Assembly (NCBI GenBank): GCA_020845955.1
Contig: JADLEU010000041.1
Coordinates: forward strand, 1-39,511
Reading direction: 5' to 3'
DNA from: Anaerolineales bacterium
GTDB taxonomy: Bacteria; Chloroflexota; Anaerolineae; Anaerolineales; UBA6663
DNA: 39,511 bases
How positions within the stretch are numbered: position 1 is the first letter of the stretch; every line of letters begins with the position of its first letter. A program made the position numbers and the translations under genes. Under the pieces are notes generated by a model that was not told the origin of the DNA, made no database searches, and saw only the letters and a program-made list of their open reading frames with translations. Below are positions 13,521-29,992 of this stretch, piece by piece.

Positions 13521-15047
13521 ATGAGCACGCCCGAGGACCACAATAGCGCCGCGGCCCAGGCGGCCGCCCGCAGCATCTGGGCCATTGCCTTCAACCAGGT
13601 TGCCCAAGTGGCCGGCAGCGTGCTCTTCGTGGCGCTGGTGCCGCGCCGGCTGGGGACCGAGGTCTATGGGCAGTTAGCCTATGCCTTCGCCCTGATCACT
13701 ATCTTGCAGATGCTGGGCGAGCTCGGTTACCAGGAGATCTTCAGTCGCTTCCTGCCGGAGGTGCGCCACAGCCAGGGGGCGGCCGGCGTGCGCGCGCTGG
13801 CGCGCGGATTGATGTCCGTGCGCCTGGCGGCAGGTCTCGGGTTGGGCCTGGTCACGCTCGCGGCGGCCCGCCTGGCCGCCGGCTGGCTGGCGCCGCCGCA
13901 GATTGCGTTGATGGGCCTGTCAGTCACGCTGCGGGTTTTTGCGATGGGGCCGTTTGCGCTGCTGCTGGGGCTGGGCCAGACGCTGAAGTGGTCGGTCGAC
14001 ACGACCTGGCGCCAACTGGTGGTGACGGGCTTGATGCTGCTGCTCGTGCCTCGGCCGTCGCTGACCTTGGCGCTGGCGGCCCTGGCGGTGCAGGAAGCCC
14101 TCTTCCTGGCAATAGGCGTCTGGTGGGCACGTGAGTGGCTGTTTGGAAGCCCGGAGGCCGCACCTCCGCGCGCCAAGACCCTGAAACCCCGGCGGATGAC
14201 GTCTGATCTGCTGCGCTTTGGGCTGGCGTTCTCTATCGCCAATTTCGCGCTGGTGCTGCTGTTCCGCATTAGCCCCATCATGGTGGAGACCCTGACGGGT
14301 TCGCACTCAGAGACGGGCTACTTTGATCTGGCGCTGGGCGGGCTGCTGTTTCTGTACACGCTGCTGGCCCAGGTGGCCTACGCGTTTGTGCCGATCCTGA
14401 CGCAGCTGCGCCTGGCGCAGCGCCCACTCGAGGCGGCCGCCTGGCTTGGGCGGGTGGTGCGTTACTCGGCCATGCTCATGGCGCTCGGGCTGGGTGGTAT
14501 GTGGGCCGTGGCCACGCCCGTGGCGCCGCTACTGTTCGGAGCGGGGTTCGCGCCGGCGGCCGGCACTATCCGCATGATGGCACTGGGGTTGCTCCCGCTG
14601 CCGATTGCCTGGGCAGGCGTCTGCCTCAGCACGGTCGACAAGCGGCCGCGGCAGAAACTGTGGGCGGCGCTGGCCGGGCTGGTCGTCTTCCTGCTGGCGG
14701 CGCTGGCGCTGCGCGGCGGCGCCTCGGCCGGGATCGCGCTGGCAGTCGCGCTGGCGCTGCTTGGGTATGCGCTGGGCTTTGGCCCCAGCGCGGTCGTGGC
14801 GGCGCGCACGGGAGGTCCCGGCTGGGCGGCCGCCACGGCGGGCGCGGCCGTCTTCGTTCCCCTCTTCTTCTGGCGACCCGCTTCGCTGCCGCTGGCGCTG
14901 GCGGTTTGGGCCGGCCTGGCGGGTGTGTACCTGGCCGGCATGCTGGCAGCACGCGTGGCGACCGCCAGCGAGGTCAGGGCGGTGCTCGGCGTCGTCAGGC
15001 GGCGGGGCCGGGCGGCGGCAAACGACCGCGGGGCGGCGGCGCAATGA
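13521..15047 (+). CDS. Oligosaccharide flippase (Wzx/MVF-type membrane protein)
   Basis: A 508-aa protein with about 12-14 hydrophobic segments. The N-terminus (SIWAIAFNQVAQVAGSVLFVALVPRR) followed by YGQLAYAFALITILQMLGELG is the typical opening of polysaccharide-export flippases of the MOP superfamily. A second copy of the fold begins near residue 230 (LLRFGLAFSIANFALVLLFRIS). It would move lipid-linked oligosaccharides across the cytoplasmic membrane. The reading frame is open for another 900 bases upstream, but that part overlaps the DUF5693 gene and has shadow composition, so I start at ATG 13521. It is in an operon with the DUF5693 gene (23-nt gap). Confidence 0.88.
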   Translation: MSTPEDHNSAAAQAAARSIWAIAFNQVAQVAGSVLFVALVPRRLGTEVYGQLAYAFALITILQMLGELGYQEIFSRFLPEVRHSQGAAGVRALARGLMSVRLAAGLGLGLVTLAAARLAAGWLAPPQIALMGLSVTLRVFAMGPFALLLGLGQTLKWSVDTTWRQLVVTGLMLLLVPRPSLTLALAALAVQEALFLAIGVWWAREWLFGSPEAAPPRAKTLKPRRMTSDLLRFGLAFSIANFALVLLFRISPIMVETLTGSHSETGYFDLALGGLLFLYTLLAQVAYAFVPILTQLRLAQRPLEAAAWLGRVVRYSAMLMALGLGGMWAVATPVAPLLFGAGFAPAAGTIRMMALGLLPLPIAWAGVCLSTVDKRPRQKLWAALAGLVVFLLAALALRGGASAGIALAVALALLGYALGFGPSAVVAARTGGPGWAAATAGAAVFVPLFFWRPASLPLALAVWAGLAGVYLAGMLAARVATASEVRAVLGVVRRRGRAAANDRGAAAQ

Positions 15048-17007: not shown

Positions 17008-18308
17008 CCAAGGTCGACGATCTGCTCGAAGAGTTTCCGGACAAGTCGCAGCGCCAGCTCAAGGCCATGTGGGCGGCCCTGCCGCTGCCGATGCAGGCCG
17101 AACTGGCGTCGTCTCTGACGCGGCTGCCGGGCGACGTCAAGCTGTGGAAGCTGCTGCTGGGCCTGGCGCTGACGCAGTTCAAGATCGCGTTTGGCGATAA
17201 GCACACCGTGACCATCGCCGGCCCGGCCAACGCCGGAAAATCCACCCTGTACAACCAGTTCGTCCGTTCCGCGCGCGATCGGGCGTCCGTCAGCCCGGTG
17301 CCGGGGACCACGCGCGCGAACCAGTCGGCCGACGCGGGCTTGTTCAGCCTGACCGACACGCCCGGGGCCGACGCGGTGGGGCAGGTGGGCGAGCGCGAGA
17401 AGGAGCTGGCGCTGGACGCGGCGGCCGAGGCCGATGTGCTGGTGATGATCTTCGATGCGTCTCAAGGGATCCGCAAGAGCGAGCAGGCCGTCTACCACGA
17501 CTTCGAGGCGCTCGAAAAACCGATGATCGTGGTATTGAACAAAATGGACCTGGTGCGGCGCGACAAGAGCCAGGTGATCGGGCAGGCGGCGGCCAACCTG
17601 GGGCTGGAGGCCGAGCAGTTGGTGCCGATCTCCGCCAGGGACGGCGCCAACGTAGAGCGGGTCCTGGTGGCGATTGCCAAGACCGAGCCGGGGATCATGG
17701 CCGCGCTGGGCAAGGCTCTGCCCGAGTATCGCTGGCGGCTGGCCTGGACGGCCATCACCGGGGCCGCCTCGACCGCGGCGGTGATCGCGCTGACGCCGCT
17801 GCCGATCTTCGATGTGGTGCCGCTGCTGGCCGTGCAGACATCATTGGTGCTGGGCATCGCCCGCATTTATGAGTACGAGCTGTCCCTGGAACGGGCGCGC
17901 GAACTGGCAATGACCTTTGGGCTTGGCTTCCTGGGGCGCACGTTGTTCCAGGAGCTCAGCAAGCTGGGCGGACCGCCGGGCTGGCTGATGTCGGCGGCGA
18001 TCGCCGCCTCGACCACGGTCGTCATGGGCTATGCCGCCATTGCCTGGTTCGAGCGCGGCGAGCGGCTGACGGGCGAGTCACTGAAGAGGATCACCCAGAC
18101 GCTGACGAGCGATCTGCTCGAGCGCCTGCGCGGGTTGGGCAAGCGCCGGCCCAGCAAGCAGGGGCTGCGCGACCGCGTGGCGGAGGTCCTAGACGAGTCG
18201 CCGCTGGCGGCCGGCCCGGAGGCGTTTGTGAAGGGGCCTGAGGCGGCTGAAAGTCTGAGGAGTCCCGGGGGGGCCAAAGGGCCTGATGGGGGAAATGCAG
18301 CTGATTAG
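17004..18308 (+). CDS. Era/YcjX-like GTPase with C-terminal DUF697 domain
   Basis: A 434-aa protein. The G domain has G1 GPANAGKS (73-80), a PGTTR switch I, G3 DTPG (118-121), G4 NKMD (179-182) and G5 SAR (210-212). After about residue 240 comes a hydrophobic region (VIALTPLPIFDVVPLLAVQTSLVLGIARIY) characteristic of DUF697, then two more hydrophobic segments and a charged tail. Proteins of this kind are membrane-associated GTPases of uncertain function, often linked to envelope or stress responses. The start overlaps the peptidase stop and the end overlaps the FGE-like gene by 23 nt, so it sits in the middle of a tightly coupled operon. Confidence 0.88.
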   Translation: MTKVDDLLEEFPDKSQRQLKAMWAALPLPMQAELASSLTRLPGDVKLWKLLLGLALTQFKIAFGDKHTVTIAGPANAGKSTLYNQFVRSARDRASVSPVPGTTRANQSADAGLFSLTDTPGADAVGQVGEREKELALDAAAEADVLVMIFDASQGIRKSEQAVYHDFEALEKPMIVVLNKMDLVRRDKSQVIGQAAANLGLEAEQLVPISARDGANVERVLVAIAKTEPGIMAALGKALPEYRWRLAWTAITGAASTAAVIALTPLPIFDVVPLLAVQTSLVLGIARIYEYELSLERARELAMTFGLGFLGRTLFQELSKLGGPPGWLMSAAIAASTTVVMGYAAIAWFERGERLTGESLKRITQTLTSDLLERLRGLGKRRPSKQGLRDRVAEVLDESPLAAGPEAFVKGPEAAESLRSPGGAKGPDGGNAAD

Positions 18309-19188
18309 CGGGAGGCGGGACACTCAGGATCGCACGGGCGCGCCCGAGCGCTGGCGCGTGTCGGACGGGACCGAATTTGCGCTGGTGCCGGCCGGCCCGT
18401 TCGTCTATGGCCCAGAGGAGGTCTACGAGCGGCTGGCGCAGGCGCCGGCGCCTCGCCCGCGCCAGACTCTCGAACTGGATGCCTTCTGCCTGGCGACGCG
18501 GCCGGTGAGCTACTCCCAGTGGAAGGCATTTCTCGACGCCACGGGGTTTCGCTGGGGCGGCGAGTGGTGGGCGATTGATCGGCGCTGGCGGGCGCGCGTG
18601 CCGTTCGCCGGCCGGCGCTTTGCGCCGGCGCGCACGTACCCGCCCGAGATGGCGCAATACCCCATCGTCGCGGTCAGCCAGACAGAAGCCCTGGCTTACT
18701 GCGAGTGGCTGTCCGGCCAGATTGGGCGGCGGTGCGGTCTGCCGAACGAGGCGCAGTGGGAGAAGGCCGCGCGCGGGACCGACGGCCGCACCTATCCCTG
18801 GGGCGAGACGAAGCCGCGGCCCGAGATCCAGTGGCAGCGAAGATTCCCCGTGGGGATTGAGACGTATCTTTATAGCCTGGTGGTGCCACCCCGCCGCGAA
18901 TGGGCCCGCGCCGGCTGGTATTGGCGCAGCGGCACGCCGCTGCCGGTTGGCGCGGCGCCGCAAAACCGCTCGCCGTACGGCTGCCTGGACATGGCCGGCA
19001 ACATCTGGGAATGGACCACCAGCCTGTATAACCCGAATCTGCCCGGTTTTCACGTTGTCAAGGGAGGGTCTTGGGGGTACAGTATTCACCACGCCAGGCT
19101 CTACGTTCGCAGCGCGTGCAGCGTCACGACGCCGAGCCAGGACTACCGGGCGCAGGGCACGGGGTTCCGGGTGGCCGTGGCGGGCTGA
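18286..19188 (+). CDS. FGE/SUMF1-like (sulfatase-modifying factor fold) domain protein lacking the catalytic cysteines
   Basis: A 300-aa single-domain protein of the formylglycine-generating-enzyme superfamily. Conserved fold signatures are VPAGPFVYG near the N-terminus, the YPIVAVSQTEALAYCEWL helix, LPNEAQWEKAARG, PWGE, GCLDMAGNIWEWT and KGGSW (259-263) with GTGFRVA at the end. True FGE enzymes have two cysteines 3 and 8 residues after the GGS motif (GGSY-x-C-x4-C). The corresponding positions here are Tyr265 and Ala270, so copper-dependent formylglycine formation is unlikely. Non-catalytic members bind ligands or act in other oxidations. ATG 18286 has AAAGGG 4 nt upstream and overlaps the GTPase end; ATG 18295 is an alternative. 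The radical SAM gene starts 14 nt after its stop. No sulfatase is present. Confidence 0.85.
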   Translation: MGEMQLISGRRDTQDRTGAPERWRVSDGTEFALVPAGPFVYGPEEVYERLAQAPAPRPRQTLELDAFCLATRPVSYSQWKAFLDATGFRWGGEWWAIDRRWRARVPFAGRRFAPARTYPPEMAQYPIVAVSQTEALAYCEWLSGQIGRRCGLPNEAQWEKAARGTDGRTYPWGETKPRPEIQWQRRFPVGIETYLYSLVVPPRREWARAGWYWRSGTPLPVGAAPQNRSPYGCLDMAGNIWEWTTSLYNPNLPGFHVVKGGSWGYSIHHARLYVRSACSVTTPSQDYRAQGTGFRVAVAG

Positions 19189-19202: not shown

Positions 19203-20693
19203 ATGAGGGCGGACCTGATCTACCTGATTAACTTCCGCAACGAGCGCGATATGTATCCGCCGTTCGGCCTGATGTACGTGGCTGACGCGCTGCTGCAGGC
19301 TGGGTTCCAGGTCAGGCTCTATCACGAAACCGAAGCCTTTGTGGACGAGTTCGTGCGCGCCACGGCCGAAGCGCGCCCGCTGTTCGTGGGCCTGAGCACC
19401 ATTACGGGACCGCAGCTGCGGCCCGTCATCGAGACCTCGCGCCGGCTGAAGGCGCTGGGCATCCCGGTAGTCTGGGGCGGGGTGCACGCCACCATCATGC
19501 CGGAGGAGGCGCTCAAAGAGGACTACGTCGACTTTGTGGTAGTGAACGAGGGCGAGGAGACCGTTCAGGAGCTGGCGCGCCTGCTGGCCGGAGCGGCGCC
19601 GGCCCAGTTTGGCCTCGTCCGCGGGCTGGCCTGGAAGGATCAGGGCCGGGTGGTCGTCAACCCCGAGCGGCCCTTCATCCGAGACCTCGATCGCTTCCGG
19701 CCGCGCTGGGACCTGATCCCGGTCGAGCGCTACCTGATCCAGTCGGGCCCCTATGACCGGGCGCTGCCGGTCTACATCTCGCGCGGCTGCCCGTTCCGCT
19801 GCGGGTTCTGCTACAACGAAGTCGTGATGAAGCGCACCTGGCGCCAGCATTCGGACGAGTTCGTGCTGGAGCAGGCGCGGTGGCTGAAGGACCACTACCG
19901 CGTCAACGCCATCGACTACGCCGACGACTACCTCTTTGGCCGTATTAAGCCCATGCAGCGGTTGGTGGAGAAAGTCGGCATGCCCTGGAGCGGGCAGGTG
20001 CGCGTGCAGCTCCTCAAGCCGGAGTTCGTGCGCTGGATGCGCGCCACGGGCTGCCAATGGGTCAACATCGGCGCCGAGTCCGGCTCACAGACCGTGCTCG
20101 ACTCGATGCACAAAGACCAGAAGGCCGAGCAGATCGAGTGGGGCGTGCGCAACCTGGTCGAGATCGCGCCCGAGGTCGAGGCCAACTTGAGCTTTATCGT
20201 CGGTCTGCCCGACGAGAACGAGGCCGAGCGCCAGGTGACGTTCGACCTGATCGAGCGGCTGGCGGTCATGAGCGCCAGGGTGCGCTGCTCGGTGTGCGTC
20301 TACATGCCGTACCCGGGCACGCCGCTGTGGCCGGAGGCGCTGCGGCGCGGCTACGTACCGCCGGCCCGCCAGGAAGGCTGGTGCGAGTTCGACCTCAACC
20401 GGGGCAACACGCCCTGGATGTCGGACAGCGAGGCCCAGGTGATGAGCGAGATCAACGACATCCTGTTCGTTGGGCGCTCGAGCGGGCACTGGCTGTTGGC
20501 GCCCTACTATGGCCTGCTGCGCTGGCGCTGGCGCCACATGTATTTCAGGCACTACTGGGAAGGCGCGCTCAAGAAGTTCCTACTGCGCACGCCCCTGCGC
20601 GGCCTGCTGGACTGGATGATGCGCCATTGGGTGCGCTACAACCCGATCACGCACAAAGGGCCGGTGGCCGAGCCGGGCGCGGCGGGAGACTAG
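19203..20693 (+). CDS. B12-binding-domain radical SAM protein
   Basis: A 496-aa protein. An N-terminal Rossmann-like cobalamin-binding domain (about 1-140: YPPFGLMYVADAL, PVVWGGVHATIMPEEAL, VVNEGEET) is followed by a radical SAM core with the 4Fe-4S motif Cys196-x3-Cys200-x2-Cys203 (RGCPFRCGFC), NIGAESGS and SFIVGLPDE. The DxHxxG cobalt-ligand motif is absent, as in many members. A C-terminal region of about 100 residues is rich in Trp, Arg and Tyr. Relatives include methyltransferases and ring-forming enzymes acting on lipids, antibiotics and peptides; the substrate cannot be deduced. A good ribosome binding site (GGGGAGGTGGG) decides ATG 19203. It sits between the FGE-like and GNAT genes and close to the PqqD-B2-AsnB block. 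Confidence 0.9.
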   Translation: MRADLIYLINFRNERDMYPPFGLMYVADALLQAGFQVRLYHETEAFVDEFVRATAEARPLFVGLSTITGPQLRPVIETSRRLKALGIPVVWGGVHATIMPEEALKEDYVDFVVVNEGEETVQELARLLAGAAPAQFGLVRGLAWKDQGRVVVNPERPFIRDLDRFRPRWDLIPVERYLIQSGPYDRALPVYISRGCPFRCGFCYNEVVMKRTWRQHSDEFVLEQARWLKDHYRVNAIDYADDYLFGRIKPMQRLVEKVGMPWSGQVRVQLLKPEFVRWMRATGCQWVNIGAESGSQTVLDSMHKDQKAEQIEWGVRNLVEIAPEVEANLSFIVGLPDENEAERQVTFDLIERLAVMSARVRCSVCVYMPYPGTPLWPEALRRGYVPPARQEGWCEFDLNRGNTPWMSDSEAQVMSEINDILFVGRSSGHWLLAPYYGLLRWRWRHMYFRHYWEGALKKFLLRTPLRGLLDWMMRHWVRYNPITHKGPVAEPGAAGD

Positions 20694-21526: not shown

Positions 21527-22510
21527 TCACGCGGGCAGGGTCGCGGCCAGCAGGGCGGGCAGCGCGTCGAGGTCGGGCGCCAGGCGCAGCCGGAAGGCGG
21601 GCGCGCTTTGGATCAGCTGATTGAGCAGGGCCAGGTGGGCGGGGATCAGGGCGCGATCCCACTGTTCGACGGCGTGGGGTAGAATCAGCCGCAAGGCCTC
21701 GGGGGCTGGCAGCGGCTCCAGGGCGTGGCTGGCGCGGGGCTCGATCTGCGGGAAGAGGAGGGCGCCGGCCGGGGCCGAATCGGCCCAGACCTGGGGATAG
21801 ACGCTCTCGGCCGCAAAGAGCACCTTCTGTCGCGCGCCCGGCGCCGCGTTGAGCGGCTGCAGCTCGGGGAAGCGGGCCAGGGTGTCGGGGTAGGCTGAGA
21901 GCAGACCCGGATACGCTAAGACCTGCACCCGGCTCGCCTCGCTCCTAAGCATGGGTGAGTCGTTTGACAGCAGTTTCCAGCCGGCGTGGAGCAGCGCCAG
22001 GCCGGTGGTGGTCTTGCCGGCGCCGATGCCGCCCACCACCAGCACTGCCCCCCGAGCGCCCGGCGGGCAGGCCGCGAAGGCGTGCAGCAGGAACCGGCCA
22101 CGGCGCCGCAGGTGCGGCGATAGCCCGATGGCCACGAGGTCTTCAAAGACGCCTTGGGCCGCCAGCGCGGCCGTCGTCAGGACGCCCTCGGTCCGGCCGG
22201 CGGCTAGGTCCAGGCGTAGTTGGCCAAAGCGCGGGAAGTGCGCGCTGACGCAGCCCGCGCTCCGCAGGTAGTACGCCAGCAGATCGCCCTGCTGGAAGTC
22301 GGGGGCCCCAGCGGGGGGCGGCGGCGGCGCGGCGGCCAGCGCCAGCGCGAGGACCAGGTCGGGCGCGGCCGCGGCGCCGCCCGGCGGGCGCGAGGCGAAC
22401 GCGGCGCGCCAGCGCTCGCCAAGCGCGAGGCCCGACCAGCGGCCGGCCACGAGCAGGTCGTGAAGCTGCCACCGGCACTCATCCGCTGCCGCCGGACCGC
22501 CTGGGGTCAT
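21527..22510 (-). CDS. HPr-kinase-like (serine kinase) P-loop protein of a RiPP-type locus
   Basis: A 327-aa protein from ATG 22510; the upstream in-frame 28 residues read over the promoter and are rejected. The N-terminal half (to about 150) has no clear motif beyond a hydrophobic core. The C-terminal half is an HprK-like P-loop domain: VLVVGGIGAGKTTTGLALL with Walker A at 160-169, then LLSNDSPML (180-188), where HprK relatives have an acidic (A/S)DD pair, so the first Asp is replaced by Asn183. A late HAVEQWDRALI matches the C-terminal end of these kinases. Homologues in paeninodin-type lasso clusters phosphorylate the precursor's C-terminal serine. Here the gene is divergent from PqqD with 53 nt between them and may be leaderless. 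The activity is uncertain because of the Asn. Confidence 0.8.
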   Translation of the reverse strand: MTPGGPAAADECRWQLHDLLVAGRWSGLALGERWRAAFASRPPGGAAAAPDLVLALALAAAPPPPPAGAPDFQQGDLLAYYLRSAGCVSAHFPRFGQLRLDLAAGRTEGVLTTAALAAQGVFEDLVAIGLSPHLRRRGRFLLHAFAACPPGARGAVLVVGGIGAGKTTTGLALLHAGWKLLSNDSPMLRSEASRVQVLAYPGLLSAYPDTLARFPELQPLNAAPGARQKVLFAAESVYPQVWADSAPAGALLFPQIEPRASHALEPLPAPEALRLILPHAVEQWDRALIPAHLALLNQLIQSAPAFRLRLAPDLDALPALLAATLPA

Positions 22511-22517
22511 GCGGCGC

Positions 22518-22525
22518 AGTATAGC
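22518..22525. promoter_or_regulatory. Overlapping divergent -10 boxes between the kinase-like gene and PqqD
   Basis: On the minus strand TATACT (22523-22518) lies 7 nt before the kinase ATG at 22510, a leaderless arrangement. On the plus strand TATAGC (22520-22525) overlaps it and would start a transcript about 32 nt before the PqqD start. If both work, RNA polymerase could serve only one direction at a time. No -35 of good quality is seen either way. Confidence 0.4.
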
Positions 22526-22563
22526 ACGCGCGGGTGGCTTTCCGCGCCGGCAGGAGGCGAGGC

Positions 22564-22833
22564 TTGGACGCTCAAACGCGATTGTGCCATTCACCCGACG
22601 CGACGTTTCAGATCGTCGCCGGCGAAGCGATCCTCATCCATTTGCAGACCGGCTACTATTATTCACTGAACGACGTGGGCACCCGGTTTTGGGAACTGCT
22701 GGACGGCCAGCGCAGCGTTGCCGACTGCGCGACTGTGATCGCCGGCGAATACAATGCGCCGGGGACCGTCATCTTGAGCGACTTGCTGGAATTGGCCACG
22801 GACCTTCACACAGAAGGCCTGGCAGCCGTCTGA
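22564..22833 (+). CDS. PqqD-family peptide-binding protein (RRE / lasso B1-like)
   Basis: An 89-aa protein with the PqqD winged-helix fold: FQIVAGEAILIHLQTGYYYSLNDVG, then FWELLDGQRSVADCATVIAGEY and a final helix. Such proteins are RiPP recognition elements that hold the leader of a precursor peptide and present it to the modifying enzymes. The start is the TTG at 22564, because a perfect AGGAGG (22552-22557) lies 6 nt before it and the length is then exactly that of PqqD. A GTG at 22534 would put this Shine-Dalgarno inside the gene. It is first in the operon PqqD-B2-asparagine synthetase. Confidence 0.88.
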   Translation: MDAQTRLCHSPDATFQIVAGEAILIHLQTGYYYSLNDVGTRFWELLDGQRSVADCATVIAGEYNAPGTVILSDLLELATDLHTEGLAAV

Positions 22834-22893
22834 GCAGGCGGCTGGGCCGCGCTCCGTCCGGCGCGCTGGATCACGACGCCGCGGGGGAGTACG

Positions 22894-23349
22894 ATGCGGG
22901 CACGAATTCGCAACTTGTGGGCGGGCCTCGCGGCGCTTTGGCTGCTCTTGGCGCCGCGCCACCGCCGGCTGTGGGTGGAGATGCGCGGATACGTGCGCGC
23001 GCTGCCCGCCGCCCTGGCTGGCCCGCTGCCCGCTGCCCTGGCGGCCCAGACGCCGGCCCAGGCCGACCTGGACCTGCGCGAAGCGGATCTGCGCCGGCTG
23101 GCCGACGCAGCCGCGCTGTTCGAGCGCCGCTCGCCGCTGGGCTTGTGCCTGCGCCGGTCGCTGGCCCGCTATCACTATCTACGCCGCGCCGGCGTGCCGC
23201 TGACGCTGAACTTCGGCGCGCGCTTCACCGGCAGGCGGCCTGATCGCGACGTCACCGGCCACGCCTGGGTGACGCTGGCCGGCCGGCCGTATTGCGAGGA
23301 TGGCGAGAACTACAGCGGCTTTGCGGTGATGCTGCAATACCCGGACTAA
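22894..23349 (+). CDS. Lasso-type B2 protein (transglutaminase-like leader protease)
   Basis: A 151-aa protein of the transglut_core3 / lasso peptide B2 family. The N-terminal about 35 residues form the hydrophobic-basic helix usual in B2 proteins (LWAGLAALWLLLAPRHRRLW). The catalytic set is visible: Cys85 in PLGLCLRRSL, His123 in TGHAWVTL and Asp136 in PYCEDGEN. The Cys-His spacing of 38 and His-Asp spacing of 13 are close to those in McjB. The enzyme should remove the leader from a precursor peptide held by the PqqD protein. GGGGGAG precedes the ATG. It begins 60 nt after PqqD and ends 19 nt before the synthetase. Confidence 0.88.
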   Translation: MRARIRNLWAGLAALWLLLAPRHRRLWVEMRGYVRALPAALAGPLPAALAAQTPAQADLDLREADLRRLADAAALFERRSPLGLCLRRSLARYHYLRRAGVPLTLNFGARFTGRRPDRDVTGHAWVTLAGRPYCEDGENYSGFAVMLQYPD

Positions 23350-23368
23350 CCCCAAACGAACCCGCCCC

Positions 23369-25234
23369 ATGTGCGGCATCCTCGGCTTACTCGCCCCCGG
23401 CGCCCACCCACACTTGGCCGAACTGCTTCCCCTGCTGGCCCACCGCGGCCCCGACGACGCCGGCTGCCACGCCGACGCCGACGTCTTCCTGGGCGCGCGC
23501 CGGCTAAGCGTCATCGACGTGGCCGGGGGTCATCAGCCGTTGAGCGTTGAAGGCGGCCAGGTCTGGGTGGTGCAGAACGGCGAGATCTACAACCACCCGG
23601 CCCTGCGCGGCGAGCTGGAGGCGCTCGGTCACGTCTTTCGCACCCGCAGCGACACCGAGGTGATTGCCCACGCCTACGCCGCTTGGGGCGATGACTGCGT
23701 CCGGCGGCTGCGGGGGATCTATGCCTTCGCGGTCTGGGACGCGGCGCGCCGGCGGCTGCTGCTGGCCCGCGACCGCTTCGGGGTCAAGCCGCTGTACTAC
23801 GCGGAACTGCCCGGGGGCGGTCTGGCCTTCGCGTCTGAGATCCGGCCGCTGCTGGCGCTGCGCCGGCAAGGCGCGCGGGCCAACACGGCGGCGCTGCGGG
23901 CGCTGTTCGCGTTGGGATTTGTGCCTTCACCGCTGACGGCCTTCGAGGGCATTGCGAAACTTCCGGCCGCGCACACGCTGGCGGCGCGGGCCGGGCAAGT
24001 GCGCCTGGCGCGGTATTGGGACCTGCCCGGGCCTGTCCGGAACGGAAGCAGGCGCGAGTCCGCGGCCGAAGCCGTCGAGGGGTTCGGCGCGCACCTGGCG
24101 CGCGCGGTGTCCGAGCAGCGCATGAGCGAGGCGCCGCTGGGCGCGCTGATCAGCGGCGGACTCGACTCGGCGTCGATCGCGGCCCTGCTCGCGGCCGAGC
24201 TGCGAGCCGAGGCGGGCGAGCCGGTTCACACGTTCAACATCGGCTTCGAGCAGCCCGGCTACGATGAGGCCCGTTTCGCCGCGCTCACCGCGCGCCGCCT
24301 GGGCGTCCGGCATCACCAGGTGCGCTTCGGCGCGGCCGACTTCGACCGTTATCCCGAGATCGTGGCCCGCCTGGAAGAACCCCAGTGCTCGGCCACGGCG
24401 CTGCCGATCTACCGTCTGTACCAGGCCTGCCGCGCGGCCGGGCTGGTCGTCATCCTGACCGGCGAGGGGGCCGACGAACTGCTCGGCGGCTATCACTGGT
24501 TTCAGGGCGACGCGCGGGCGCGGCGGCTGTTCGTGTGGCCGGCGCCGCTGCGCCGCCTGGCGGCGGCCAGCCCGCTGCCCATCTCCGCCGCGGGGCGGCG
24601 CGTGCTGCGCAGCGGCGAAGCCAGCGCGCTGGCCCGCTACGCGCTCTGGCAGCGGCCGGGCGAAGCCGAAACGAGCACGGTATTCGTGCCGGACCTGCGC
24701 CGCCAAGCGGGCGGCTTGGACGTGTGGCTCGCCGGGCTGGACGGCGCGGGCGGCTGGCGTGACCCGTTCCGGCAGTTCCAGTACTTCGAGGCGCGCACGC
24801 GGCTGGTCGACTTCATCAACTTTGAGGTCGACCGCATGAGCATGGCCCACTCGATCGAGGCGCGCGTGCCGTTCCTGGATCACGAGTTGTGGGAATACGC
24901 GGCACGCCTGCCGAGCAGCCTGCTCACCAGCGGGCGGCCCAAATTTCTGCTGCGGGCGGCCATGCGCGGCCGGCTGCCGGCCGAGGTCCTGGCACGGCGC
25001 AAGCAGGGGCTGGCCGCGCCACACGCGGCCTGGCTGCGGCGGACCAGGCTGCCGGAGTGGGCCGAGGTGGCACTGTCGCCCGCGGCGCTGGTGGGCACGG
25101 GCTACTTCGAAGCGGCCGAGGTGGGGCGGCTGCGGCGCGAGCATCAGGCCAGGCGCGCCAACCACGCGCGGGTGCTGATGGGCGTGCTGAGCACGCAGCT
25201 TTGGCACGGCCTTTTTGTCGCCGGCGGGCCTTAG
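23369..25234 (+). CDS. asnB: Asparagine synthetase B-type amidotransferase / lasso-cyclase-like enzyme
   Basis: A 621-aa protein. The N-terminal class II glutaminase domain is complete: Cys2 after the initiator Met (MCGILG), RRLSVIDVAGGHQP with Arg45, NGEIYNH (70-76) and the SDTE motif with Asp95. The synthetase domain has the PP-loop SGGLDS (262-267), LTGEGADELLGGY and the C-terminal EARVPFLDHELWEYA. Lasso cyclases share this architecture but often lack the glutaminase nucleophile. Here it is intact, so the enzyme should use glutamine-derived ammonia, making asparagine or amidating some other carboxylate. Its position after PqqD and B2 is that of a lasso C protein. No Shine-Dalgarno precedes the ATG, so reinitiation after B2 is likely. 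Its stop overlaps the convergent gene's stop. Confidence 0.92.
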   Translation: MCGILGLLAPGAHPHLAELLPLLAHRGPDDAGCHADADVFLGARRLSVIDVAGGHQPLSVEGGQVWVVQNGEIYNHPALRGELEALGHVFRTRSDTEVIAHAYAAWGDDCVRRLRGIYAFAVWDAARRRLLLARDRFGVKPLYYAELPGGGLAFASEIRPLLALRRQGARANTAALRALFALGFVPSPLTAFEGIAKLPAAHTLAARAGQVRLARYWDLPGPVRNGSRRESAAEAVEGFGAHLARAVSEQRMSEAPLGALISGGLDSASIAALLAAELRAEAGEPVHTFNIGFEQPGYDEARFAALTARRLGVRHHQVRFGAADFDRYPEIVARLEEPQCSATALPIYRLYQACRAAGLVVILTGEGADELLGGYHWFQGDARARRLFVWPAPLRRLAAASPLPISAAGRRVLRSGEASALARYALWQRPGEAETSTVFVPDLRRQAGGLDVWLAGLDGAGGWRDPFRQFQYFEARTRLVDFINFEVDRMSMAHSIEARVPFLDHELWEYAARLPSSLLTSGRPKFLLRAAMRGRLPAEVLARRKQGLAAPHAAWLRRTRLPEWAEVALSPAALVGTGYFEAAEVGRLRREHQARRANHARVLMGVLSTQLWHGLFVAGGP

Positions 25235-27630
25235 TCGACGGCCTCCACGATCAGCCGATCCACCTTCAGGCCGGCCGTCCCAGCGTAGTCCAGCATAAAG
25301 ATCAAGGCCTGGGGCTTGGGGTTCTCAAACGAATATTGAAGCGAATAGTAACGGCCGTCGGCGGGGATGCCGGCCGCGGTGAAGTCCCACCGCTGGGCCA
25401 GCGCGGCCGCGTCGGCGCCGATGACGCGGGCGCTGCCCAGCACGCTGTCGGGGCTCAGTGGTTCGGCGGCGGGCAGCACGGCCACCGAGATGGTCAGCCG
25501 GTAACGGCCGGCGCCGTATGGCTCCGCGAAGCTGTACGCCAGCCTGCCCGGTTCGTGGCCGGCGGCCGGGTCGGCCTGCATGGCCTTGCCCCGGTAGGCC
25601 GCGGGGTCCGCCACGGCGTCGCCCACCGTCCGCTGCAGATCCACGGCCAGATAGGTGCGCGGCTGCGGGCGCAGCGAGAGGCCGAAACTGCCGGCCGCCA
25701 GCAGCGCCAGGCCCAGGCTCAGCGCGGGAGGCGGCGCAAAGGCGCGCGGCCGCGGCTGGCGCGCCTTCCGCAGCGCCAGCCAGCCCACTAGCGCCGCGGC
25801 CAACAGCCAGACGGCCGCCAGGCCCAGGGAGTGAAAGAGATCGGGCGCGATCGACAGCATCCCGACCTGGAGTGCGGCTTGCCCGGTTGCGCTGACGAGC
25901 ACGGTCGGCGGATGCCCCCAGCCGTTGTACATGGGGCTGTAGAACCCAAAGCGATACAGGCCGTCGGCGGACAGATCTCGGCCCAAGATCGTGGCGGAAA
26001 AGTAGTCGCCCGCCTGCGGCGAAAAGATCCTGATGCTGGCGATGGGCGTATCCGGCCCGGCGTCCGGCGCCGCTAACGGCAGGCGCGCCGTGTACCAGCC
26101 AAAGGGAAATTCAGGCAGGTCGACCTGGCGCAGCACCAGCCCGCTTTCGCCGGCGGGCGCTTGCCAGGTGGGCGCCTCCGTTAGCCGTGCCCGCACCGCG
26201 CCGGCCAGCAGCTCGGATGGTTCACTACCCGGGCCCGCCAGCGGCGTGCCGGCCACGGCACCCTGGCCGGCCGGCAGGAAGGCAAAGCGCGCCATGGCTG
26301 GCACCACCGCTTCCAGATCGAGCCGCGGCTTGAGCGCTTCGACCGGGCTGGATAGGATGCCGCGTATGGGCTGCGCCACGACCAGCGCGCCCGACCACAG
26401 GCTGGCCGCCAGCAAGGCGGCGATGACGGGCCGCGCCCGCACCGGCGGACCGGCGGCCCACAGGTAAGCCAGGCCCCCGCCCAGCAGCGGCAGCGCGGCG
26501 ATCAGGAAGCGGGCCGAATATTCCCAGCCCAGCCAGAACCCGCCCCAGACCGCCACCGGCAGCAGCGCCGCCGCGAACGGCGCCAGCAGCGCCAGCCCGG
26601 CCAGCGGCCGGCGGACCAGCAGCAGGGCGCTGCCCCACAGGGCGGCGAGGTAGACAGGCGCCGTGATGACCAGGCCGCGCTGGTTGTCGAACAGCCAGCC
26701 CAACAGCCCGCGGCCCACGCGTTGGAGCGCGAACGACCGCTCCACCGCCAGCGGGATGGGTCCGGCGTAGGAGGCCGCCGGCGAGGCGCTTCCGTAGAGC
26801 CAGAAGCTGAAGAGCATGTAACCGGCCAGGCCGGCCCCCGCCAGGAGCGCAGCGGCCAGCCAGGGCCGGCTGCGCTCGCGCCGAGCGCGCCACAACCCCC
26901 AGGCGGCGAAGAGCGCCATGGCCGGCAGGAAGCGCGACGAGAGCCAGGGCAGGATCGCCAGGCCCAGGCCAAACTGCACTATGCCTGTCACGCTCAACGG
27001 GCGGGCCGCGGTCTGGTGGGGCCGGTACCCGCGCAAGGCCTGGCGGGCGGCGAGGATCAGGCCCAGCGCCGCCAGCGCCTCCGGATAAACCAGGAACACG
27101 TACCACAGCACCGGGGGCGCAAACGCGATGGCCGCCCAGCCGATGACCGCCGCGATCCAATTGCCGGTGAGGTCATAGCCCAGCAGGAACACCTGCGCGG
27201 CCAGCAGCGCGCCAATCAGCGCCAGGGCGTAGAGCACGCCGGCCAAGCCGCCCAGCGCATAGGCCGGGGCAATGGCGAAGCTCAGGCCCAGGTTGTGGGT
27301 GAGCACCGCCTGGCCGTCGGCGCGCACCCGCACGTGCGGGTTCAGATAATACTCGCCATAGTAGGGGGCGTAGTCGCGTTCGGCGTAGTTGTTGTTCAGG
27401 TCCAGGTCGCCGTCAAAGACCAGGCTGTGGGCGGCCAGCAGGTAGTGCGGCTCGTCGCCGCTGCGGGCCCAAACGCGGGCCAGCCAGGGCACCAGCGCGA
27501 CGTAGACCGCCAGGGTTGCCAGAAAGACGGGCAGGCCGGGCAGGCGGTTTAATCCGGCGGCAAGCGCGCGGCTGGGCGGCCGGCCGGGCGCGTCGGGCGG
27601 CTGCCTGGGCGGCGCGGCGCGGGTGTTCAT
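25231..27630 (-). CDS. Large GT-C-like polytopic membrane protein
   Basis: A 799-aa protein. The first helix (VFLATLAVYVALVPWLARV) is followed by ARSGDEPHYLLAAHSLVFDGDLDL, an acidic first loop like that of GT-C glycosyltransferases, and about ten hydrophobic segments up to roughly residue 430. After this comes an extracytoplasmic part containing FGWYTARLPL, a further TM pair (about 600-660), and a final soluble beta-rich domain ending YYSLQYSFENPKPQALIFMLDYAG. It probably transfers a sugar from a polyprenyl-phosphate donor outside the cytoplasm. ATG 27630 overlaps the stop of the preceding glycosyltransferase gene (ATGA, 27627-27630); longer in-frame starts are inside that gene. It is last in a four-gene operon, and its TAA overlaps the TAG of the convergent synthetase. 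Confidence 0.82.
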   Translation of the reverse strand: MNTRAAPPRQPPDAPGRPPSRALAAGLNRLPGLPVFLATLAVYVALVPWLARVWARSGDEPHYLLAAHSLVFDGDLDLNNNYAERDYAPYYGEYYLNPHVRVRADGQAVLTHNLGLSFAIAPAYALGGLAGVLYALALIGALLAAQVFLLGYDLTGNWIAAVIGWAAIAFAPPVLWYVFLVYPEALAALGLILAARQALRGYRPHQTAARPLSVTGIVQFGLGLAILPWLSSRFLPAMALFAAWGLWRARRERSRPWLAAALLAGAGLAGYMLFSFWLYGSASPAASYAGPIPLAVERSFALQRVGRGLLGWLFDNQRGLVITAPVYLAALWGSALLLVRRPLAGLALLAPFAAALLPVAVWGGFWLGWEYSARFLIAALPLLGGGLAYLWAAGPPVRARPVIAALLAASLWSGALVVAQPIRGILSSPVEALKPRLDLEAVVPAMARFAFLPAGQGAVAGTPLAGPGSEPSELLAGAVRARLTEAPTWQAPAGESGLVLRQVDLPEFPFGWYTARLPLAAPDAGPDTPIASIRIFSPQAGDYFSATILGRDLSADGLYRFGFYSPMYNGWGHPPTVLVSATGQAALQVGMLSIAPDLFHSLGLAAVWLLAAALVGWLALRKARQPRPRAFAPPPALSLGLALLAAGSFGLSLRPQPRTYLAVDLQRTVGDAVADPAAYRGKAMQADPAAGHEPGRLAYSFAEPYGAGRYRLTISVAVLPAAEPLSPDSVLGSARVIGADAAALAQRWDFTAAGIPADGRYYSLQYSFENPKPQALIFMLDYAGTAGLKVDRLIVEAVD

Positions 27631-28781
27631 GCGTCCGGACGCGCGATTGGCCCGGCGGGCTCGGCCTCGGGGTTGGCGATCAGCGCGCCGTCCGCGCGGA
27701 CTAGGCGCGCGCCGTGGACGAAGTAGCGCAGCGTGCCAAGCGCGAAGCTGAGGTTGTTGTAAAGGTAGTAGAGCCAATGCCAGGGCAGCGCGGCCAGGGT
27801 GAAGGCCAGGCCGCGGCGCCGGGTCCAGAAGGCGTACAGGTGCGCGTTGAGGGCCAACAGGGCCAGGGCCAGCCCAGCCGGCAGCGGCCACAGGCCGGGG
27901 AGCCAGGGCACGAGCGCGAGCGACAGGCACAGCAGGGAAGTCAGGGCCACGCTGGCGCGGTTGGAAGTCTGCAGGTTGAGGTCGAGCAGGTAGGGCCGCC
28001 GGGCCAGGGCCGGATCGGGCAGGCGCAGCAGATCGCCCGTGGCCAGCAGAGGCTCGCTGGTGCCCCGGGCGCGCGACTCGCGCCACAGCAGCACGGTCCA
28101 GGGAATGCCGCGCTCGCAGATGTCGGAGCGCAGCAGGCTGCCGGCGGTCCAGCGCTTGAGGTGGACGCATTGCATCGCCTTGAGCAGGCGGATCTCGCCG
28201 CCGCGCCGGCGCAGCCGGTAGCCCAGGTCGATGTCCTCGATGCTGGGGCGGCCATAGGCGGCGGCGTCGAAGCCGCCCAGCGCCAGGAAGGTGCTCAAGC
28301 GCATAGCGCCGCAGCCGGTCCAGAAGGTCGAGGCCCGGGTGTGGGCGTGCTGATGCACGTAATGGTGCAGCAGGTTCTTGTACTGCGACAGGAAGTTCGG
28401 GGCGGCTGGGGCGTCGTCATACGAGCCGAAGACGGCCTCCAGCGCGGGATCGGCGGCGAAGGCCTGGGCGGCCAGCCGCAGCGCGCCGGGATGCAGCGCG
28501 ACATCGGCATCGACGAAGAACACATAGTCGCCGGCCGCCGCCCGCGCGCCCACGTTGCGGGCGGCGGCTGGACCATGGCCGCCGGGGGCGGGAGTGGCCA
28601 GCACGCGCGCGCCAGCCGCGCGGGCCACGGCCGGGCTGTGGTCGCGGGAGCCGTCGTCGACCACGATCACGTCGCTCTCGGCCAGGCCGGCGCACGCCGC
28701 CCGCGCCGCGTTGAGCGCAATTAAGCACTGCTTAAAGGCTTCGCCGCCATCGCGGACGGGCACGATCAGGGTGAACTTCAT
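27627..28781 (-). CDS. Family 2 glycosyltransferase with C-terminal membrane helices
   Basis: A 384-aa protein. The GT-A domain has IVPVRDGG, VIVVDDGSRD, the metal-binding FFVDADV (DxD), TGCGAMR and SIEDIDLGYRLRR, in the normal GT2 order. The last 120 residues hold three or four hydrophobic segments (SLLCLSLALVPWL, LALALLALNAHLYAFW, HWLYYLYNNLSFAL), anchoring it to the membrane. It resembles the mycofactocin-type and surface-glycan GT2 enzymes; donor and acceptor are unknown. Both ends overlap neighbours by four bases (ATGA at 28778-28781 and 27627-27630). Confidence 0.9.
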   Translation of the reverse strand: MKFTLIVPVRDGGEAFKQCLIALNAARAACAGLAESDVIVVDDGSRDHSPAVARAAGARVLATPAPGGHGPAAARNVGARAAAGDYVFFVDADVALHPGALRLAAQAFAADPALEAVFGSYDDAPAAPNFLSQYKNLLHHYVHQHAHTRASTFWTGCGAMRLSTFLALGGFDAAAYGRPSIEDIDLGYRLRRRGGEIRLLKAMQCVHLKRWTAGSLLRSDICERGIPWTVLLWRESRARGTSEPLLATGDLLRLPDPALARRPYLLDLNLQTSNRASVALTSLLCLSLALVPWLPGLWPLPAGLALALLALNAHLYAFWTRRRGLAFTLAALPWHWLYYLYNNLSFALGTLRYFVHGARLVRADGALIANPEAEPAGPIARPDA

Positions 28782-29992
28782 GCCGTCCTCTCGGTCGCCG
28801 TCCAGCGCACCGGCCGGCGCAGGACGCTGGCCAGCGCCGACCAGGCGGCAACGGCGATGTCGAGCGCGAAGAAGAACGGCACGACCGCCAGGCGGCCAAA
28901 GGCGGCGAGCGGCTCGCCGGCCAACCGCAGCGCGGCCGCCATTTCGAGCGCCGGCACGCCGAAGTAGGCCAGCCAGACGATCCGCGGGAAGCCGGCCGTG
29001 CCCGGTCTCCAGGCGTCCAGCAAGGTGAACAGGCCGCCGGCCAGCAGGGCCAGCCGGTCGGCGTAGCCGAGGGCGAAGAAGGCCAGCTCCAGCTTGAGCA
29101 GCGGCGAGAGGCGGGGGCCGCGCCAGAGGCCGGGCAGGCGCCCGCCGCCGGCCTGGTGAAAGCCACGGTTCCAGCGCAGATGCTGCCGCACATAGCCGCG
29201 CACGGAAACCGGCGCTCGGTGACGCGAGACCGAGGCATCCGCGAAACGCGTGCGCCAGCCAGCCAGCGCGAAGGCCAGGGTCAGGTCGGTGTCTTCGAGC
29301 AAGGCGCCGCGCGTAAAGCCGCCCACGTCTGCCAGGGCCGAGCGGCGATAGGCCACATTGGATCCCAAGAGCGCGGGCGCCAGGTCCAGCCGGTCCTTGG
29401 CGCGCATGGTGATGAATTGGTGGACCAGGGACTCGATGGCGGCATAGGCCGCGGCCGGGCTGGCGGCGCCGTTCACCACGCGCATCTGGCCGCTGGCGCC
29501 AGCCACGCGTGGGTCGGTCAGCGGCGCCACAAGGGCGCGCAGCGAGCCCGGGTCAGGTTGATGGTCGGCGTCGTAGACCACCACGATCTCACCCCCCAGC
29601 GGCGGCAGGGCCTCCAGGGCCTGGTTGAGGGCCTGGGCCTTGCCGTGGCTGGCCGGCAGCTCGATGACGCGGGCCCACGGCCGCGCGGCAGACCAACCGC
29701 GCGCCAGTTGGGCACTGGCGTCCGCTGAGCCATCGTTGATCAGCGCGGCGCGCAGCCGGCCGCGCGGGTAATCCAGCGCGTCCAGCGCCGCAAACAAGGC
29801 TGACAGCGAGGCGGCCTCGTCTCGGCACGGGATGAGGGCCGTCACGGGCGGCAGCAAAGGCGCCGGCTCCGCGGCGGCTGACGCGCTGCGCCTGGGCAGC
29901 GCTGGCGCCACGGCCGCGGCCAGCAGCGCCGCGCGCCGCAGCGAAAAGGCCAGCAGGACCGACGCCGCGGCCAGCGCCGCCAGGTGGAGCAT
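28778..29992 (-). CDS. Processive-type family 2 glycosyltransferase (QxxRW)
   Basis: A 404-aa protein with an N-terminal membrane helix (LAALAAASVLLAFSLRRAALLAAAV), then a GT-A domain with ALIPCRDEAAS, ALINDGSAD, VVVYDADHQPDPGS (DxD), LLEDTDLTLAF and QHLRWNRG. The last is the QxxRW motif of processive cellulose- or hyaluronan-synthase-like enzymes. Two or three C-terminal helices follow. It may polymerise a beta-linked glycan or a poly-N-acetylglucosamine-like chain. The ATG at 29992 directly follows the stop of the DUF3048 gene (TAGATG, no gap). Confidence 0.9.
   Translation of the reverse strand: MLHLAALAAASVLLAFSLRRAALLAAAVAPALPRRSASAAAEPAPLLPPVTALIPCRDEAASLSALFAALDALDYPRGRLRAALINDGSADASAQLARGWSAARPWARVIELPASHGKAQALNQALEALPPLGGEIVVVYDADHQPDPGSLRALVAPLTDPRVAGASGQMRVVNGAASPAAAYAAIESLVHQFITMRAKDRLDLAPALLGSNVAYRRSALADVGGFTRGALLEDTDLTLAFALAGWRTRFADASVSRHRAPVSVRGYVRQHLRWNRGFHQAGGGRLPGLWRGPRLSPLLKLELAFFALGYADRLALLAGGLFTLLDAWRPGTAGFPRIVWLAYFGVPALEMAAALRLAGEPLAAFGRLAVVPFFFALDIAVAAWSALASVLRRPVRWTATERTA

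Follow-up and report, generated by a model that had tools for sequence, protein, structure and literature searches.

Related Systems and Main Features of the Locus

Very short conserved precursors, PqqD-type recognition proteins and radical S-adenosylmethionine (SAM) enzymes are combined in the pyrroloquinoline quinone (PQQ) and mycofactocin pathways. Linear polyphosphorylated peptides (LPP; Nat Commun 2026, PMC13381572), a family of ribosomally synthesized and post-translationally modified peptides (RiPPs) with a reported range limited to Bacillota, are made by the lpp clusters (below, LPP clusters) from precursors of 35–200 amino acids (aa) with variable cores. Their leader, of the motif YxxPxVLxHQxIxFETxxS, is cut after Thr by an SpI-like peptidase, and an HprK-like kinase phosphorylates the third core residue. 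In the case of the lasso peptide pseudomycoidin, PsmK phosphorylates a Ser and the NTP-transferase-like PsmN installs hexoses on the peptide (PMC9266682). The AsnB/AsnH/LtsA amidotransferases, glutamine-dependent enzymes with an asparagine synthetase fold and Cys2, amidate a wall-precursor carboxylate other than free aspartate (PMC8554201). Here, we describe a block of four genes located on C41, a contig of 39.5 kb from the metagenome-assembled genome (MAG) of a member of Chloroflexota; this entire contig was analyzed and is referred to as the window. The block is probably the enzyme half of a dispersed RiPP-type pathway and is likely to act on a micro-precursor of 23 residues encoded on another contig, C283.

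The block consists of a gene for a P-loop kinase of the HprK/PEPCK superfamily (Kin; 21527..22510, minus strand; P-loop GGIGAGKTT at residue 160), oriented divergently to three plus-strand genes, encoding a PqqD-family RiPP recognition element (RRE) (22564..22833; PF05402, 57 bits), a B2-type transglutaminase-like cysteine protease of a clade called here window-type (22894..23349; PF13471, NF033537) and an AsnB-type glutamine-dependent amidotransferase with an intact glutaminase (23369..25234; TIGR01536). The coordinates and families assigned in an earlier, sequence-only reading were upheld, and its gap sizes of 25 nt (from Kin to the gene beyond), 53, 60 and 19 nt were correct.

The putative pathway shares with the LPP clusters a leader that partly matches in register, a discrete RRE, an HprK-like kinase, an NTP transferase and the setting in polysaccharide loci. 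Unlike them, it occurs in Chloroflexota, with dispersed genes and a precursor of 21–23 aa ending in a near-invariant FS[SA]H, and it includes a B2-type protease, an AsnB amidotransferase, a B12-radical SAM enzyme and an FGE-like enzyme. An RRE, B2, an AsnB-fold enzyme, an HprK-like kinase and an NTP-transferase-type enzyme are common to it and to lasso systems of the paeninodin/pseudomycoidin type, from which it differs in a core without a lactam-forming residue, a glutaminase-intact AsnB, a different B2 clade and the lack of a lasso precursor. It is distinguished from the PQQ and mycofactocin pathways by the B12 type of its radical SAM enzyme, the extra kinase, the amidotransferase, the glycan genes and an unrelated core. 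The window AsnB has the glutamine-dependent asparagine synthetase fold with Cys2 in common with AsnB/AsnH/LtsA and, unlike these, sits in a PqqD-B2-kinase cassette.

The Candidate Micro-Precursor

Among short open reading frames (ORFs) conserved between close relatives, a micro-ORF (MKTYTKPALKKHETLKQVTFSSH in locus L121, with a counterpart in L122; genomes G247 and G207) was found upstream of an NTP_transf_5 gene and in one cluster with the cassette. It represents a family of 21–23 residues with the consensus MKxYxKPxLKKHxxLKxVTFS[SA]H. The copy of the genome studied here, MKTYTKPTLKKHSALKQVTFSSH (23 residues; C283:43547-43618, minus strand), lies 157 nt before an NTP_transf_5 gene whose product is 46–50% identical to those of G247 and G207. 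A class-wide profile search (298 genomes) placed the micro-ORF in 11 genomes at E<=1e-10, with the next best match at 0.03, and a wider search of 400 genomes of the phylum gave no further convincing copy; with a broader model, an extra copy cut by the contig end (MYKKPKVTKHQTLTQ) was detected in G167. Every copy is preceded by a Shine-Dalgarno site, pN/pS within groups is 0.08–0.14, and in 2.2 Mb of locus DNA the motif matched only members of this family, while the reversed motif gave 0 matches. Judged by these features, the micro-ORF is genuinely coding. Its C-terminal sequence, VTFS[SA]H, is almost constant across f1, f15, f18, f46 and f48 (these, as well as f24 and f38 below, are family labels assigned by the search tool).

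Aligned in register with the LPP leader, the micro-precursor presents Y0, P3, V/L5 (or M), H8, I/L11 and T15 in nearly all copies and S18 in most of them, with Q, F and E unmatched. By analogy with LPP, its core would be F-S-[S/A/M]-H, with an invariant first Ser and neither Asp nor Glu; the lasso cleavage rule, with Thr at -2 (PMC10368454), would give the core S-S-H. No SpI-like leader peptidase was noticed beside the micro-ORF, and no genome-wide search for one was made. A first LPP-like DNA pattern allowing mismatches returned chance-level matches and missed the real copy, and in a search for longer YxxP/WxxP peptides the other PqqD loci were not clean negative controls, since they hold precursors of their own.

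A gene for an NTP_transf_5 (PF14907) protein stands close beside the micro-ORF in the genome studied here, as well as in f46, f18 and f48. In f46 (G247 and G207) the order is micro-ORF, NTP_transf_5, DUF5693, FGE, radical SAM, Kin (opposite strand), PqqD, B2 and AsnB. In f18 it is micro-ORF, radical SAM, NTP_transf_5 and the glycosyltransferase (GT) gene GT2b, with GT2a also present in two genomes, and in f48 it is micro-ORF, NTP_transf_5, GT2b (in G278), GT2a, GT-C and DUF5693, with a flippase gene in G200. Thus, the window genes for Kin, PqqD, B2, AsnB, the radical SAM enzyme, the FGE-like protein, DUF5693, the flippase, GT-C, GT2a and GT2b all have homologs that sit beside the micro-ORF somewhere. 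The window-type B2 is present in 10 of the 11 micro-ORF genomes (Fisher p 1.5e-12; 2.9e-10 for the unlinked cases only); the micro-ORF shares a cluster with the cassette in two relatives and is present but unlinked in eight other genomes. The sequence-only reading had listed a precursor encoded elsewhere among its alternatives, and the micro-ORF on C283 now gives this option a specific and well-supported candidate.

Several observations weigh against this assignment. The Fisher p-values are inflated by common descent, and the genomes tested are those that gave rise to the hypothesis. The genome studied here is a MAG with an estimated contamination of 4.4%, and its micro-ORF does not lie on the contig of the block (the composition of C283 is compatible with that of C41: GC 0.67, tetranucleotide r 0.84). 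No micro-ORF was detected in five genomes that have a window-type B2 (G244, G295, G250, G079 and G230), it is present in G047 (81% complete) without a window-type B2, B2 and Kin are unlinked to the peptide in f18 and f48, and the f24 genomes carry a longer, different peptide. Moreover, the third residue of the core can be S, A or M, which means that only S2 is conserved and not S3, the LPP phosphosite.

The f24 peptides, of 41–43 aa, are LPP-like (...KKTYQTPTLTKHQRLQKVTLGTVSNGPNWLLPGN, with a VSNGPNWLLPGN-like core), and their genes stand between those of PqqD and an HprK-like kinase (L176 7607-7732, L177 8000-8128, L178 1914-2039, L179 7392-7517 and L269 7149-7280); their leaders are of the LPP type, outside Bacillota. 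Two short ORFs located after PqqD in other loci (L189 7029-7190 and L190 7593-7781) carry a leader-like WxEPxxxxERS motif and are candidate precursors of another RRE system. Close to the micro-ORF on C283, a reverse transcriptase gene (RVT_1, 334 aa) lies beside a gene for an FG-GAP repeat protein (L223 10555-13006, G000:C283). It was considered as part of a putative diversity-generating retroelement, but no direct or template/variable repeats were found.

Search for a Precursor within the Window

The sequence-only reading had noted no precursor in the gaps of the block, and this holds for the whole contig: among the short ORFs lying between genes on its 39.5 kb, no Shine-Dalgarno site and no lasso-type leader was found. 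In a comparison with the syntenic relative L115 (72–80% DNA identity over most of 15–31 kb), the only conserved small ORFs were PqqD itself, its shadow frames and weak chance matches elsewhere. As the window is an entire MAG contig, the DNA just outside it cannot be read.

Two further candidates were rejected. A precursor-like C-terminal tail of PqqD was found in other loci (L188 and L193–L195) and not in window-type PqqD, and the opposite-strand gene that separates B2 from AsnB in some relatives turned out to encode a PMT_2-type glycosyltransferase. The tailed PqqD proteins (L188 6375-6839, L193 6618-7073, L194 7148-7576 and L195 6617-7261) end in a sequence resembling FxPPxxxKYTDMQxLLxLDPIHxVDxxGWP and are possibly RREs fused to their own leader or substrate; an HprK-like kinase gene adjoins three of the four.

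The Cassette Proteins and Their Distribution

No Pfam domain was significant in Kin, which gave only weak HprK_rel_A/B matches and did not pass the HprK-specific NCBI models. Its AlphaFold2 (AF2) model (pLDDT 94.5) matched PEPCK over 282 residues with a VIA Z-score of 17.6, and both PEPCK and HprK with a Foldseek probability of 1.00, and the predicted structure clearly belongs to the HprK/PEPCK superfamily. Kin orthologs (~50–67% identity) adjoin PqqD-B2-AsnB in relatives. The PqqD gene, one of only two in the whole genome, most likely starts at the TTG at 22564, which has AGGAGG just upstream and coincides, in the alignment, with the start in the closest relative.

The B2 protein passed NF033537 (44.5 bits, cutoff 33) and was modeled by AF2 with a pLDDT of 94; its Foldseek and VIA comparisons returned mixed, weak transglutaminase-like matches (Z of 4.4 or less) that give no pointer to function. 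For this protein, a Cys85/His123/Asp136 triad had been proposed from the sequence. In an alignment of 14 relatives Cys85 and His123 were indeed invariant, and the third acid is Glu135, also invariant, rather than Asp136, which is variable. AsnB matched TIGR01536 with 441 bits (cutoff 267) and keeps Cys2, NGEIYN, SGGLDS, GEGADE and the K449 equivalent. In an alignment with E. coli AsnB, it retains Cys1, Arg49, Asn74, Gly75, Asp98, the ATP loop, Glu348, Asp351, Glu352 and Lys449, residues mostly lost in the tested lasso cyclases except for the ATP loop and the two aspartates. The enzyme keeps every glutaminase residue tested and most of the synthetase ones, unlike lasso cyclases, and is a glutaminase-intact amidotransferase of the asparagine synthetase type and not of the lasso-cyclase type.

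The window-type B2 was confirmed in 20 genomes (298 class members searched), and all 31 named matches in a pattern-based, not exhaustive search of 84,980 species came from Chloroflexota. The comparison of gene order across relatives, as had been suggested, showed PqqD-B2-AsnB as a group in most of the named loci, as a rule accompanied by Kin. The cassette is often flanked by genes for a B12-radical SAM enzyme and an FGE-like protein on one side and by an Exo_endo_phos gene or glycosyltransferase genes on the other. In the f18 genomes these genes are scattered, with flippase-PqqD (joined in two of its three loci by AsnB, and likewise in two by FGE), the kinase and B2 at separate places; the solo window-type B2 loci of f18 and f24 have unrelated housekeeping genes as neighbors. 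The window-type B2 and Kin co-occur even when unlinked (Fisher p 4e-9), which suggests that the dispersed pattern reflects a single function and not a cluster in decay.

In cassettes of the f38 type, PqqD is lengthened by an insert of ~60 residues within its C-terminal half (L078 8408-8866, L079 3877-4335 and L119 5041-5508). In f18 (L083, L084, L086, L090 and L183), genes for Crp, DHODB-type Fe-S and DHODH-like proteins precede the kinase or PqqD-AsnB, and in L086 RidA, ClpS and YbaK-like genes also adjoin the kinase.

Proposed Pathway

We infer that the micro-ORF is the substrate of the enzymes described above, together with the following order of steps and chemistry of the product. PqqD would bind the YxKPxL..H leader, and the HprK/PEPCK-like kinase would phosphorylate a Ser of the core FSSH, in which the first Ser is the invariant one. 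NTP_transf_5 and the GT2 and GT-C glycosyltransferases could then add sugars to the core, with further changes made by the radical SAM and FGE-like enzymes. B2 would cut the leader after the invariant Thr, or one residue later, AsnB would amidate the core C-terminus or a sugar acid, and the Wzx-like flippase would export the product. Since the core lacks Asp and Glu, AsnB could not form a lactam, and the C-terminal carboxylate would be its sole target in the core peptide. The near-invariance of the core suggests a single conserved product rather than a diversifying antibiotic.

The block probably belongs to a larger, mostly uncharacterized Chloroflexota pathway with a tiny, almost unchanging product decorated with sugar and phosphate. 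A bolder proposal, which we regard as tentative and rather open to doubt, is that this is a new RiPP class of Chloroflexota, with a precursor of 21–23 residues, among the shortest known, whose near-invariant four-residue core would be phosphorylated, glycosylated and possibly amidated by scattered genes to give a single conserved cell-surface or cofactor-like product. Seen in this way, ‘precursor-less’ lasso-like cassettes become a pathway that can be tested, with a specified 23-mer as the candidate substrate; RiPP precursors can, like this one, be missed by ordinary gene finding when they fall below gene-calling length limits and are distant from their enzymes. The LPP-type leader, for which all reports to date are from Bacillota, would be extended to Chloroflexota, and a conserved modified peptide is suggested in the poorly understood envelope of Anaerolineae.

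Alternative Explanations

The sequence-only reading had described the block as lasso-like. A split-B lasso cluster, with its canonical precursor elsewhere or lost, would indeed contain PqqD, B2 (here passing NF033537), an AsnB-fold enzyme and an HprK-like kinase, yet the window AsnB, with Cys2 kept, scored 226 bits against the lasso cyclase model NF033535 (cutoff 525), and the candidate core FSSH is without an Asp or Glu for a lactam ring, a residue placed at 7–9 in lasso cores. In the trees, the window-type B2 stands in a clade of its own, apart from lasso B2 (100/100), and the window-type AsnB groups with E. coli AsnB, apart from lasso cyclases at 95/82. A true lasso cluster is located on another contig of the same genome (L063, G000:C204, 3520-7522) and comprises PqqD, B2, a cyclase, a precursor and an HprK-like kinase; its cyclase, in which Ser replaces Cys2, passes NF033535 (625 bits, cutoff 525), and its precursor (...YTPPRLTVHGDVQSLTGKIGQDPDLDGGGSFLPA) passes the lasso-leader model. 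The lasso-specific PqqD models are less decisive, as the window PqqD (33 and 25, cutoffs 80 and 70) and the true lasso PqqD of C204 both fall below the cutoffs. Two simple leader patterns recovered a precursor in 9 of 21 true lasso loci vs. 0 of 18 window-type loci (the window and 17 others; p 0.0014). The genome-wide search for a lasso leader (Y-x2-P-x-L..G..T) proposed in the sequence-only reading gave 6 matches, compared with 5 in the reversed control, of which the sole real one was the C204 precursor; it missed the relevant peptide because the latter has an LPP-type leader. As far as the gene sequences can tell, the four genes are not a lasso peptide cluster, and this reading of the block is highly improbable.

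The constant neighborhood of GT2, GT-C, NTP_transf_5 and Wzx-like genes would suit a surface-glycan pathway without a peptide substrate, in which PqqD, B2, Kin and AsnB modify a glycan, a lipid-linked intermediate or a surface protein, and the micro-ORF is a regulatory leader ORF or encodes a small partner protein. AsnB, as a canonical glutamine-dependent amidotransferase whose homologs amidate wall precursors (PMC8554201), would then amidate a uronic acid or a wall peptide. The surface glycan hinted at in the sequence-only reading is borne out insofar as glycosyltransferase, flippase and nucleotidyltransferase genes are linked to the same micro-ORF. However, the combination of an RRE with a leader protease of the B2 type speaks for a peptide, as does the RRE-type leader of the micro-ORF in the LPP register, and a regulatory upstream ORF is at odds with its position before different downstream genes in each family and with its conservation at the protein level; we consider this explanation unlikely. 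Slightly less probable still is a cofactor- or metallophore-like RiPP, with the micro-precursor converted into one small diffusible molecule, as in the case of PQQ and mycofactocin, and the sugar genes being incidental or tailoring. The near-constant VTFS[SA]H terminus, unlike antibiotic-type RiPP cores, the presence of PqqD and a radical SAM enzyme, and the terminal His as a possible metal ligand are consistent with it, but the accompanying genes, which include those for a Wzx-like flippase, DUF5693 and three glycosyltransferases, suit a surface product better, and the PQQ and mycofactocin core motifs are absent.

Neighboring Genes of the Window

Upstream of the block, on the plus strand, the window encodes a DUF5693 protein (11587..13497; PF18949), found also in the micro-precursor clusters of f46 and f48, and a Wzx-like flippase (Polysacc_synt; 13521..15047; PF01943), whose homologs adjoin PqqD in f18 and lie downstream of the micro-precursor in G200. 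These are followed by an FGE/EgtB-like protein with a sulfatase-modifying factor domain (18295..19188; PF03781), which in relatives accompanies PqqD-AsnB or the entire cassette, and by a B12-binding radical SAM enzyme (19203..20693; PF02310 and PF04055; CxxxCxxC at 196), whose orthologs (65–69%) adjoin the micro-precursor in f18 and are located near Kin in eight window-type loci.

On the other side, three minus-strand genes encode a large predicted membrane glycosyltransferase (GT-C-like; 25231..27630; weak match to the LA_3751 glycosyltransferase family) and the family-2 glycosyltransferases GT2a (27627..28781; PF00535) and GT2b (28778..29992; PF13641). Homologs of the first (32% over 600–800 aa) accompany the micro-precursor in G278 and G200, those of GT2a are present (47–52%) in the micro-precursor clusters of f18 and f48, and those of GT2b (44–48%) directly downstream of NTP_transf_5 in the same two families. 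Between the flippase region and the FGE-like gene, a GTPase with DUF697 is encoded at 17004-18308, at the same place as in L115, the closest relative.

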